From contig CAUJNA010003325.1 of NCBI GenBank assembly GCA_963377175.1, positions 115,001 to 179,000 of the forward strand: a stretch of 64,000 nt of DNA, read 5' to 3'. The translations under genes were made by a program, and so were the position numbers. Source of the stretch: Effrenium voratum. Taxonomy: Eukaryota > Sar > Dinophyceae > Suessiales > Symbiodiniaceae. This document shows, piece by piece, positions 13,386 through 37,300 of the stretch. The notes beneath the pieces were generated by a model. The model worked only from the letters and a program-made list of their open reading frames with translations. It did no database searches and had not been told where the DNA came from. Numbering within the stretch: the first letter of the stretch is position 1; each line of letters begins with the position of its first letter.

Positions 13386-16300
13386 GATCACTGCGGGCCT
13401 CAAGTGGAGCGAGACTTCGCAGTGCAGCGGAAGTCGAAGCTCTGCAAGGCGCGCCGGCTGTCCGCCGGGCTGGCCGAAAGGAACCCGAGACAGGCCTTCC
13501 AGCGGTACGGAAAACCTTGCCCGTGATTGTTTGAATTTGGAGCAGGTGGTTCTACGTACTACTTGGTTGAATTGAAAGTTATCATAAGGTCTACATACAC
13601 CTTTATCAATTTATCAACATGTCGGTAGAGCCAAGCCTCAAAGGGTTTTGGGCACTGCCCACTTTGAATCATCCACCAAGAGTCGATGCCAAAGCCAATG
13701 TATTGGTGGAGTGATCGAAAGGAGAGGTCGCCCAACACAACTCCTGCAAGGCTCTGCACCGGCTTTTCCATTTTGGGAACAAAGCGGATGTGTTCCGATG
13801 GATTTCGGGGTTGCCCAAAGGATATGGGGTTTCCGCAAGGGACCAACCCCAAGGCCCTTTGGCAGCCGAGAAAAAGGACACACGCTGTCCACCAAACTCA
13901 AGGGGTGTGCGGGTGTCCTTCTTTCAAGGGTACATTTTGTTGCTGGTTTTACAGGGAAATCATAGGGAAACACCGCCTATCAGATCTTCAATTTCTCACG
14001 GCGACTCTTGGTTCGCATGGCGATATCGCCGGGGATGCAGGGGGTCCAGTATCAAGCCAAGTGCAGGCGTGAGTCTGAGATGCTTTCAGGAGAAGACTGC
14101 TGCAGCTGTTTTGCATCGCTACGAGCACAGGAAAGAGATGAGTAGGGCCGAGCTAAGAGCCTGCGCATGCAACGAGTCCCCACTGACAGACACATCACGG
14201 TGGGTCTGCATGGCTTCTTCTTTTGAGAGTACTGCAAGCCAGGAAGCCACGTGCGCGCTCGTCTGACGACTGCTGGGTCCGCATTCTGATTCTTTTGCTC
14301 AAGTACCTTAAAAGAGTGGGTGACGATGCCGGGGCACATTAGCCAACACGTCGCTGGCGAAAGAATCACCCCTGAACAGCCACGTGCCTTTTGTGGAAAA
14401 GAGGCACGCGGGATCCAAGGCGAAGCGCCTTGAGAGTTGCTTTCAGGGAAAGCTGAGCCAGATTGGCCAACAGATTTTCCGATTCTCGCGAAAGAGTTGC
14501 ATTCGGAGTTGGCGCGCAGCTCCCGATCAAGCGGATGAGGTTGTGGATGAAGCGGTGGTTGGGGCCTTGGCCGTCCGCCTCAGGAAAGCCACAGCTGGAA
14601 GAACAGGCCGCTCGAGAGCCAGGAGTCCTACAGTGGATGGTTGCGAAATCCATTCCATTTCGCGCAGCTTTGAAGCCATGGTTGAAACCATAGCGTTTGT
14701 TGGTATTTGCAGGGGAGTCGCCTGATTCCAGGGTTTCTTAGGTGGTGCCGGATTTCGTCCATGAACAGGAAGTTGAGGAAGTGGTCACTGCGTGGCTGCC
14801 TTGTCTCCGCGTTCCAAGGACTTGCAGCCTGGACTGCTCAAACTCGGATTTGACGGACCCGCTTCTGGCCCGTTCTTTTGCACTGGTTCCAGTTGCAGGT
14901 CAGATGTGCCAAAGCCAAACCACGCACTGCGTCCAGTGCGCAGCTTGAGAATAGAAATCGAAGCCAAGCAGCAGTGGCTGAGAACGATGCGCGTACTGTG
15001 AGCAGGAAGGGAAAGAAGCGCAGTTACAGTTAGACCAGACCTTGCCCATCTTTTTTCTATAAAAAAACCTAGGGTCCTCCCCACACTTTTAGCAACATTT
15101 TAAAACAGCACCTCAAACAGCACATTTTCAAAAATTAACATTTTAAAGCAGGTAATTTCCTAGTAAGTTCATCCATATTTTAAAATATAAATTTTAAAAA
15201 ATAAATTTTAAAAAAAGAAATTTTAAAAAATAAATTTTAAAAAATAAATTTTACAAAATTTTAAAAAATAAATTTTCAAAAAAATATAAATTTTAAAAAA
15301 TAATTTTTAAAAAAAACAAATTTTTAAAAAAAATTAAAAAAAATAAATTTTACAAAAAAAATAAAAAATAAATTTTCAATAAAATATTATTCCAAAAAAT
15401 ATGATAAATTATTTTACAATAAATTTTATCACAAATTTTGTAGACATATTATGGGCAAGGTCTGGTTCATTCGTTTTTTACGGGCACCATTCTTTCTTAA
15501 TTCTTTCTATTATTTTATCACACGTTGCTTCATTATAAATATTACTTCCTATTTGTTTTCTAAACATTCCCATTATTCCAATTGCACGTGTTATTGTATA
15601 TCTAAGTTCGTGAGTTTTATACTCATCATTTAAAAACTCATTTAAAAAATCAAACAATATAACATATTTTAAACGTTTAATATTAAAAGAAACGTTATAT
15701 ATATTTTTTTTTACCATACTATAATACTTAAAAATAAAATCATTATTATATCCTTCGTCATCACACTCAGTTAGTAAATTATCAAACCCTTCTATAGTTA
15801 AGAAATTATTCATTACAATAAACACAAATATTTCTAAATCATCATCAATAGTTTCATTATTTCTAATATCAATATCTTTGTTATTCATATCATCAATTTT
15901 GTTTATAATTCTATTACAATTATTGCATATCATATATTGACAAATATAATTACAAACGCCATTTGTAAAACCCTGTTCAACTGGTAATTTTAGCATTTCG
16001 CAGTCTTCACATTTATAACTCATAAACTTTTTTTCAATATATTTTTAGCATCGTGGACTGTATCACTCATCAAACTATATAATAGTATTATAAAATATTT
16101 CTTTAAATACTTTTTACAAGAATTTTAATTTAAAATTAAATTTCATTAAGAAATTAAAATTAAATTAGGATATGTAGATAAAATTTCATAATTTAAGTTC
16201 AGGATAATAATTTAATTGATGACTACTAAGTTGTATATATAACTTATGTCTTTCATGCATTATTTTTAAAATAATATTAATATCTCTCACTGTATTTTTA

Positions 16301-34300: not shown

Positions 34301-37300
34301 AAGATAATTAGTTTTGTGTCTTGCTCGCGTGTGCAATGAAAACCCAAGTGCTGTGCCCCACCAATATTCTATTATGCATGAAAATAATAAGATTAATTAG
34401 AATAATTTATCTTATTATTTAATATGGATAGAAGTTATTCAGATTATATTGATATAATAGATGAAGTAGAGAATATAGAACAAGTAATAATAACTGACAA
34501 TAAAATTAAAAAATGCTGTTATTATTCATTAGAATTAATAAAATTAGGAATACAATATATCAAAAATAAAAATGCAAATATTAATATAAATGGGAAAAAA
34601 GAAAAACAAAAAGAATAAAACGGATACTACAGTTTCTTCAACAGATGAAGACAAAGAAGAAGAAATTGTTAAGGAAACAGCACTAACCGAGTTTGAGTGT
34701 CCTATGTGTAAAAAGATGTTAGAAATAAAAAATGAAATAGAAATACAAAAGAAAGGAAATTGTAAATGTTCGTGTATTGCGACAAATTTCAAATTGAGTA
34801 AAAACGATAAGAAAATGAATATTGATAAAACCAAAGACAGTATAAATCTGGAAACGGATGTTCATAATATAACTTTTAAATGGGGGAGGCATGCGTCGCC
34901 ATCCGATAATGGTGATAACGAAGCACAGGAAACTATTAAACAAATGATGAAAATTTAGTACTTAAAGAGTATATTTTACATTAAATCAATTTTATAAATA
35001 AATAAATATTTAAATAAATAATTATATAAATAAATATATATAGAAATGTCTGAAGTTGAAAATGATGTTATTGTTGAACTATCAAAGAAGATAATGACAG
35101 TTAGTAAAAATGTTAAACTGTTGTACGAGATGATAAAAACTATTGACCAGAAACTTGATGCAAAGGCAAACGAACCAAAAAATAACAATGAAGAGAAGGA
35201 AAAGATTGATAAGATCTTTGAAAAGAAAGGGATAGGCAGACCCAGCGGTGATTATGACACGAAGCGTAAAAAATATTGTGATATGTTAAATAAGGGACAA
35301 ATCAAAAGTCCAAAAGAACAAACATTAGAATATTATAAACTAATTAAGGGCGATGATGGTAAATATGTAATTGTTGAAAATTAAAATACAAATAGTTCTA
35401 ATAATATGAATTTATTAGAATTATTTTCAGGCAGTGGTTCTGTTTGTAAAATTGCACGGGATTTAAGTTTTAATGATGATAATCCAATTTTAGCAATTAT
35501 AATTTAATTATGCTAATTTAATTATAATTTTAATTTATTAATTTAATTTTAATTTATTAATTTAATTTTATTTTATTAATTTAATTTTAATTTATTAATT
35601 TAATTTTAATTTATTAACTTAATTTTATTTTATTAATTTAATTTTAATTTAAAATTAAAATTCTTGTAAAAGTATTTAAAGAAATATTTTATAATACTAT
35701 TATATAGTTTGATGAGTGATACAGTCCACGATGCTAAAAATATATTGAAAAAAAAGTTTATGAGTTATAAATGTGAAGACTGCGAAATGCTAAAATTACC
35801 AGTTGAACAGGGTTTTACAAATGGCGTTTGTAATTATATTTGTCAATATATGATATGCAATAATTGTAATAGAATTATAAACAAAATTGATGATATGAAT
35901 AACAAAGATATTGATATTAGAAATAATGAAACTATTGATGATGATTTAGAAATATTTGTGTTTATTGTAATGAATAATTTCTTAACTATAGAAGGGTTTG
36001 ATAATTTACTAACTGAGTGTGATGACGAAGGATATAATAATGATTTTATTTTTAAGTATTATAGTATGGTAAAAAAATATATAACGGTTCTTTTAATATT
36101 AAACGTTTAAAATATGTTATATTGTTTGATTTTTTAAATGAGTTTTTAAATGATGAGTATAAAACTCACGAACTTAGATATACAATAACACGTGCAACTG
36201 GAATAATGGGAATGTTTAGAAAACAAATAGGAAGTAATATTTATAATGAAGCAACGTGTGATAAAATAATAGAAAGAATTAAGAAAGAATGGTGCCCGTA
36301 AAAAACGAATGAACCAGACCTTGCCCATAATATGTCTACAAAATTTGTGATAAAATTTATTGTAAAATAATTTATCATAATTTTTTGGAATAATATTTTA
36401 TTGAAAATTTATTTTTTTATTTTTTTTGTAAAATTTATTTTTTAAATTTTTTTAAAATTTATTTTTTAAAAATTATTTTTTATTTTTTTTTTGAAAATTT
36501 ATTTTTTAAAATTTTGTAAAATTTATTTTTTAAAATTTATTTTTTAAAATTCCTTTTTTTAAAATTTATTTTTTAAAATTTATATTTTAAAATATGGATG
36601 AACTTACTAGGAAATTACCTGCTTTAAAATGTTAATTTTTGAAAATGTGCTGTTTGAGGTGCTGTTTTAAAATGTTGCTAAAAGTGTGGGGAGGACCCTA
36701 GGTTTTTTTATAGAAAAAAGATGGGCAAGGTCTGGTCTAACTGTTACAACCAGCAGATTTCTGAACACCGTATGGCAGAACTGCCGGATTTGCAAAGGCC
36801 GCCCCCATGGCAAGGTCAAGAGGCAGTGCACCTCGCGTAGCAAGTCTTCCCATGGCAAGCGCAGTCCTCACGGCGTTTCTTTCTACGAGTGGAGCTGCAA
36901 TCCCTGCCTTCATGGCAAGCTGAAGCAATACTGCCTTCAGTGCTAAACGTCGTCTTGCAGCGCAAGGCAAAGAAGAAGTGCCCGATTTGTGCTGAAGCCA
37001 GACGTTTGGTTGTGCATTGCGCCTGGGAAAAAGACGCTAGCCTAGCGTGGCTGACATTCCTGTCCTTACAATGTGACGATGTTGCAAGCCATGTGGGGGG
37101 TCCTCAACAAAAGACACTCCCATATTATAGGTTGTTTAAAGCCTGGGGCCTTGGTTGAGTTGCGTGGAACTCTCTTGGCGAATCTCTGGACTCGCCTTGC
37201 AGGCCTAGTCCTGCTGACCGCGAACCTGCGGTTGACGGAGGGCGATTCGCCTGCAAAAGAGATCCAAGCATTCCCCGCTCAGCGGTGCTCTTTCCCCCCG

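Follow-up and report, generated by a model that had tools for sequence, protein, structure and literature searches.

A polinton-like virus family integrated in a probable dinoflagellate genome: one copy with open virion genes and a split replicase

Does a virus-like element integrated in an algal genome still serve as a source of virions, or has it become a transposon that carries capsid genes? This question is raised by a window of 64,000 nucleotides (contig CAUJNA010003325.1, positions 115,001 to 179,000; coordinates below are those of the window), in which the initial annotation had recognized a complete Polinton-like provirus with an intact core set of genes, a potential source of virions. 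We consider it very likely that the element belongs to a multicopy family of polinton-like viruses (PLVs) integrated in the genome of a dinoflagellate, whose place is probably within the Suessiales/Symbiodiniaceae, and that this copy has kept its virion genes while its replicase is split.

The element comprises 21,715 bp with a GC content of 28%, compared to about 50% in its flanks. Its terminal inverted repeats (TIRs), the alignment of which spans 1,140/1,128 bp and contains 1,113 identical positions, 11 mismatches and 20 gap positions, begin at 15028 and 36742 and are bordered by a 5-bp target-site duplication (TSD). When the left end and its flank were used as query against the assembly (1,155,904,702 bases in 3,699 contigs), 40 matches were scored among 229 candidates, and those outside the window began at query bases 2–6, most commonly at base 6, which corresponds to 15028. 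Because the left-end homology across copies stops at this position, the left border had been placed correctly, and with the TIR starts and the TSD both ends of the initial annotation proved exact. Nine combinations of left and right ends were examined, eight of which are true pairs about 20–22 kb apart, namely the window element and seven siblings, while the ninth combines ends that share a flank, lie inverted to each other at a distance of about 48 kb and do not belong to a single element. An exact 5-bp TSD was present in all eight true pairs (GTTAC, TTAGG, GTGGG, CTTGC, TTGGG, GGGAC, CTTAA and TTTGG), compared to none of 63 mismatched combinations matching over 5 bp. The joined host flanks of the window copy match a second locus (C3436:55458-55722) with 71% identity over all 281 bases and a single GTTGC at the point corresponding to the insertion; judged from this alignment, the locus is a diverged, paralogous empty site.

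The frames of the major capsid protein (MCP), the penton and the packaging ATPase are open in the window copy, and for these virion genes the description as an intact core set holds. The MCP gave no match in Pfam, and a profile search against PDB sequences returned nothing meaningful. Its predicted structure is of low confidence (pLDDT 55) and yields low TM-scores (0.2–0.3), yet 50 of 50 PDB matches listed are double-jelly-roll capsid or scaffold proteins, with PBCV-1 as the best match (1.2e-9) and with iridovirus, PRD1, vaccinia D13, Sputnik and mavirus proteins among the others. The penton model (pLDDT 74.5) has the mavirus penton as its top match and nearest solved fold (8.9e-11), matches Sputnik as well (4.0e-7) and is predicted to form a single jelly roll; among predicted viral structures, it matched proteins of Tetraselmis viridis virus S1 and mavirus, and its profile found nothing among PDB sequences. 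The ATPase additionally matches STIV B204 (0.0081). A double-jelly-roll MCP, a single-jelly-roll penton, an A32/FtsK-type ATPase, and TIRs and TSD together with an rve integrase are the features expected of a PLV (eukaryotic Preplasmiviricota), and the assignments of capsid, penton and ATPase made initially were borne out by these structural and profile matches. Among the 120 MCP matches listed, the closest named relatives are four EukProt gene models labeled Skav, which we take to be Symbiodinium (Fugacium) kawagutii, with 64–72% identity, and a dinoflagellate is accordingly the very probable host of this bounded, integrated element. The fibre gene looks split, with overlapping open reading frames (ORFs) at 24931-25662 and 23826-24968; the S74 domain at its end is reported to be widespread in PLVs (PMC12220804).

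The DDE integrase was recovered as an rve match weaker than Pfam's own cut-off, with the D-x59-D-x31-E triad present. In the window copy, the replicase is spread over three adjacent minus-strand frames, the ends of which overlap at both joints. Database relatives have the parts at 18992-20371 and 16857-18932 fused into a single protein of roughly 1,090 aa; judged by eye, several of these relatives reach further N-terminally over the apparent first piece. Among 25 relatives drawn from the 120 listed, the Asp of polymerase motif A, the Asp of motif C, the Lys of Walker A and the HNH His were each found in 25 of 25, the OTU Cys in 18 of 18 with the column filled and the OTU His in 24 of 24. Conservation is complete or almost complete for motif B and for the Walker and zinc/HNH residues, and motif C reads K-T-D, i.e. 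its first Asp is missing. By their motifs, these relatives combine the vOTU Cys/His pair, family-B polymerase (PolB) motifs A–C, a superfamily 1 (SF1) helicase and a C-terminal nuclease, as expected of Tlr1-like fusions of a protein-primed PolB (pPolB) with an SF1 helicase (S1H); a layout of terminal protein (TP), vOTU, PALM and S1H plus nuclease has been described for Tlr1-like helicases of PLVs (PMC11071308). An exonuclease domain in the pPolB was not found by Pfam or PDB matches, searches that also missed the palm domain, and an adenain-type protease, a canonical Maverick/Polinton trait, gave no Pfam match among 20 ORFs at E-values up to 0.1.

Among the best 64 replicase matches scored in the genome, 24 copies stay open for 1,350 codons or more (range 1,359–1,412), the window copy has 720 and the other 39 are also shorter. 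The long sibling frames were counted by length only, and from their length of about 1,400 codons they would hold all three replicase parts. Since the replicase frame is broken as assembled, the window copy is probably not autonomous; for the same reason, the intactness of the core set does not extend to replication, and the designation as a potential source of virions went too far. It is possible, if doubtful, that the breaks are unreal and the copy complete, either because near-identical copies were assembled or polished incorrectly or because the frames are joined by programmed frameshifting. False frameshifts caused by assembly errors are a known trap in such elements (PMC10120064), the frames overlap at both joints, and as many as 40 of 64 copies, the window copy among them, have a broken frame. 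Programmed frameshifting, however, is opposed by the 24 copies in the same assembly that read through without a shift.

The family is represented by at least 82 scored MCP copies, 77 of them stop-free, and by at least 149 ATPase copies, 147 of them stop-free, in lists that hold the best candidates, miss distant copies and include duplicates. If each of the 149 ATPase copies were a full element, the family would amount to about 3.2 Mb or 0.3% of the assembly. The TIR pairs of siblings differ at 1/535 to 34/488 aligned bases, and because of this range the insertions seem, on sequence grounds, to be of several ages, some of them young; the sibling with one mismatch in 535 bp inserted recently if its TIRs were equal at insertion. 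Ratios of nonsynonymous to synonymous polymorphism (pN/pS) were 0.09 for the MCP and 0.02 for the ATPase, in 20 rows each from sets picked by those same genes. Neighboring genes not used for picking, named by their first position, gave 0.13 (27568, 5 rows), 0.29 (28378, 12 rows), 0.31 (32075, 19 rows), 0.30 (34590, 16 rows) and 0.17 (35046, 12 rows), and the Cys-rich TIR gene gave 0.38 (17 rows, set picked by TIR DNA). Gene 30689 had four rows with zero synonymous changes, and gene 31048 had six rows of sufficient coverage, every one of them shifted in frame relative to the window; most of the fetched stretches break off within these two genes, or else the genes diverge. Judged by these ratios, the proteins of the sampled copies are under purifying selection.

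Several points weigh against the view that this is a PLV family with functional virion genes and a replicase of the kind outlined above. The copies used for pN/pS had been chosen as top matches to a single gene, whose own ratio is thereby biased downwards, and rows with frameshifts were excluded. The polymerase and OTU assignments are supported by motifs and by the published layout (PMC11071308), and no Pfam or PDB profile match covers them. Short replicase frames are so frequent that the break is not peculiar to the window copy. Identical flanks occur twice for some insertions (L026/L027, L029/L030 and L035/L036), and because several insertions are listed twice in this way, distinct insertions are fewer than the scored places. 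Such doubled insertions were seen on contigs C1421, C2800, C902 and C3620, in one case inverted within the same contig, a pattern that points to duplicated haplotypes or assembly fold-back. Finally, a scan of IMG/VR with the MCP found no relative, and a scan with the replicase found one remote relative with 33% identity. The 66-kb sequence carrying the latter (L073, IMGVR_UViG_3300049043_000066) also has an integrase-like ORF by eye.

The lack of a free-virus relative of the MCP in IMG/VR and the large number of similar copies within a single genome would also fit a capsid-bearing transposon that spreads within the genome only, via its own polymerase and integrase, and no longer makes virions, a transition that has been proposed for OmPLV by the authors of the Oxyrrhis study (PMC12721341). 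We regard this as the less probable course of events, as the low pN/pS of MCP and ATPase, even if biased downwards, and the mostly open frames suggest that the virion proteins are still used. The split replicase and fibre frames of the window copy and the 40 replicase frames below 1,350 codons might instead indicate a decayed fossil that no longer moves anywhere in the genome, but the 24 long open replicase frames, the sibling TIR pair with 1/535 mismatches and the low pN/pS make this very improbable. A chimeric joining of a free virus or contaminant to algal contigs, for which the sharp GC change at the borders could be cited, has a negligible probability in view of the exact TSDs on eight different flanks, their absence from the 63 controls and the empty paralogous site.

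In the favored interpretation of an integrated PLV family, the linear element would be copied by protein-primed synthesis, carried out by one polypeptide with a terminal-protein region, an OTU protease, a family-B polymerase, an SF1 helicase and an HNH nuclease. The A32 ATPase would load the DNA into a double-jelly-roll capsid, and the rve integrase would paste the element into DNA. The window copy, being probably non-autonomous, could be mobilized in trans by its siblings. A promoter-like motif is common to the non-structural genes, which may be the first to be expressed.

This motif of 26–29 nt, TTCTTGTAAAA(A)nG(T)TATTTAAAGAAATA, has five exact occurrences and one variant with two changes (at 23792) in the element, each of which precedes a Cys-rich, replicase, integrase-side or small ORF. 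It was absent from the 100 nt before the MCP, penton and ATPase genes, and some ORFs of unknown function lack it as well. In 100 mononucleotide shuffles of the element no match was obtained, and a narrower pattern with fixed spacing gave two matches, compared to 0.01 expected from dinucleotide shuffles. The motif also occurs in sibling copies, its exact core was found in 34 of 84 loci, many of which do not span the site, and it did not occur in IMG/VR. In the search for a late promoter, only short AT-rich words were found in common upstream of the remaining ORFs. As a candidate early promoter, the motif is the most useful new observation of this analysis. In endogenous virophages, such motifs were read as links to giant viruses (PMC8547959). 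By analogy, the motif might be a true promoter that responds to an external cue, for example an undetected giant virus of the alga, the many selected copies forming an inducible reservoir with a shared replicase, in which copies with broken replicase and open virion genes are mobilized by siblings. Such a defense or satellite system in dinoflagellates, like that of the endogenous virophages of Cafeteria, is an improbable scenario at present.

A single copy of this kind is ordinary by itself. A well-bounded family in one 1.16-Gb genome allows the 5-bp TSD rule, the age of the copies, the selection on them and the candidate early promoter to be measured, and the question of virus or transposon thereby becomes testable for dinoflagellates.

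Table 1. Features of the integrated element and its borders (window coordinates).
Feature	Position	Strand	Evidence
Whole integrated element	15028..36742	.	TIRs, TSD, GC drop
Left TSD GTTAC	15023..15027	.
Right TSD GTTAC	36743..36747	.
Left TIR, 1,140 bp	15028..16167	+
Right TIR, 1,128 bp	35615..36742	-
Cys-rich ORF (zinc-type by eye), left TIR, 181 aa	15478..16023	-	no Pfam match
Early-type promoter-like motif	16096..16122	-
Second Cys-rich ORF, 180 aa	16186..16728	-	ORF list
Early-type promoter-like motif	16754..16780	-
Replicase piece: polymerase motifs B, C; SF1 helicase; C-terminal HNH/endonuclease VII-like	16857..18932	-	Viral_helicase1 5.1e-9; phrog_1035 1.8e-7; motifs
Replicase piece: OTU-type Cys/His and polymerase motif A	18992..20371	-	motifs in relatives; no Pfam match
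Replicase piece: N-terminal, putative terminal-protein position (by eye)	20482..21057	-
Early-type promoter-like motif, before replicase	21087..21115	-
rve (DDE) integrase	21147..22112	-	rve 2.8e-4; D-x59-D-x31-E
Third Cys-rich ORF, overlaps integrase start	22093..22938	-	ORF list
Early-type promoter-like motif, before Cys-rich ORF and integrase	23062..23089	-
Array of nine GC-rich hairpins, varies between copies	23152..23384	.
Small ORF behind variant of early-type motif	23484..23765	-
Motif variant, two changes	23792..23820	-
Fibre piece with S74 chaperone at end	23826..24968	-	PF13884 2.5e-10
Fibre piece, other frame (probably same gene)	24931..25662	-	ORF list
ORF, function unknown	25943..26497	-
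Penton (minor capsid protein)	26612..27466	-	mavirus penton 8.9e-11
Hydrolase/lipase-like ORF (weak)	27568..28350	+	Hydrolase_4 0.012, below cut-off
ORF, function unknown	28378..28821	+
Double-jelly-roll MCP	29079..30662	+	predicted structure, Foldseek vs PDB
Three ORFs, function unknown	30689-31006, 31048-32058, 32075-32890	+
A32-type packaging ATPase	33397..34161	-	Pox_A32 8.8e-12
Two ORFs, function unknown	34590-34958, 35046-35384	+
Early-type promoter-like motif, right TIR	35661..35686	+
Second, frame-truncated copy of TIR Cys-rich ORF, right TIR	35709..36110	+

Besides the gene content, two traits had led to the initial suggestion that the element may be undescribed, a zinc protein gene within the TIRs and a hairpin array (Table 1). 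Among the eight paired elements, only the window copy with its 1.1-kb TIR has the Cys-rich gene at both ends; the TIRs of the other seven measure 431–546 bp and the gene is present at a single end, so that a TIR-borne Cys-rich gene was rejected as a family trait (one end in 7/8). About 424 bp inside the TIR, at approximately 15450-15467, lies a partial inverted copy of the TIR terminus (ACCAGACCTTGCCCAT; terminus 15028-15050), which is possibly a second integrase or replication site. The nine GC-rich hairpins sit within an element of 28% GC and fold far better than shuffles (z -5.5), and only some copies have them. Of seven sibling stretches fetched for comparison, five span the array site as judged by flanking motifs, with no hairpins in L074, L075 and L077, seven in L078 and two in L080; L076 and L079 have none, but these stretches seem to stop short of the site. 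A role as origin or regulatory element was rejected, as the array is not conserved and is absent from three of the five spanning siblings, and the hairpins may be a mobile repeat in their own right. An Rfam search gave no match, and the dinoflagellate spliced leader had no match in the window. In the host DNA, a simple repeat of two bases runs for about 1 kb at 61001-62000 (GC skew -0.956, AT skew 0.949).

Because the TIR zinc gene and the hairpin array vary between copies and dinoflagellate PLVs have been published (PMC10120064, PMC12721341, PMC12220804), the suggestion of an undescribed element was overstated. In the literature consulted, we found no description of exactly this element, yet its kind is already known, and its closest kin are probably the dinoflagellate PLVs in print. 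A 'Dino group' of PLV capsids has been named, with 2,535 MCPs in Polarella glacialis (PMC10120064), and a 21-kb polinton of S. kawagutii was reported on contig VSDK01003953.1 (97,440-118,633; PMC12721341). These PLVs share the host group, the size of about 21 kb and multicopy integration with the window element, in addition to the MCP similarity to the Skav models, but they are probably from other host species; the likeness is drawn from the published descriptions and the Skav models. In Breviolum, Maverick/Polinton elements were found to be strongly marked with 5-hydroxymethyluracil and enriched near domain boundaries (PMC11071213).

Tlr1 of Tetrahymena resembles the window element in its rve integrase, its TP-vOTU-PALM-S1H replicase and a motif C without the first Asp, whereas its C-terminal nuclease is of the GIY-YIG type instead of HNH-like, both of which are reported for PLVs (PMC11071308). 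OmPLV of Oxyrrhis marina likewise forms low-GC PLV copies in a dinoflagellate, with a double-jelly-roll MCP, an A32 ATPase and a very large polymerase-helicase fusion. The window element uses an rve integrase and is flanked by a 5-bp TSD. OmPLV, in contrast, encodes a tyrosine recombinase and lacks a TSD, its helicase precedes the polymerase, and an exonuclease domain is present (PMC12721341). The Symbiodinium and cryptophyte PLVs have HNH-helicase fusions, described for 12 Symbiodinium PLVs, as well as S74 fibres, TIRs and short TSDs, but their HNH domain is N-terminal to the helicase, whereas it is C-terminal in the window element; its main text uses neither the word promoter nor the word hairpin (PMC12220804). 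The mavirus-like endogenous virophages (EMALEs) are similar in being multicopy in a protist and in their shared promoter-like motifs, and the solved fold nearest to the penton of the window element is that of mavirus, although EMALEs are virophages and not PLVs (PMC8547959).

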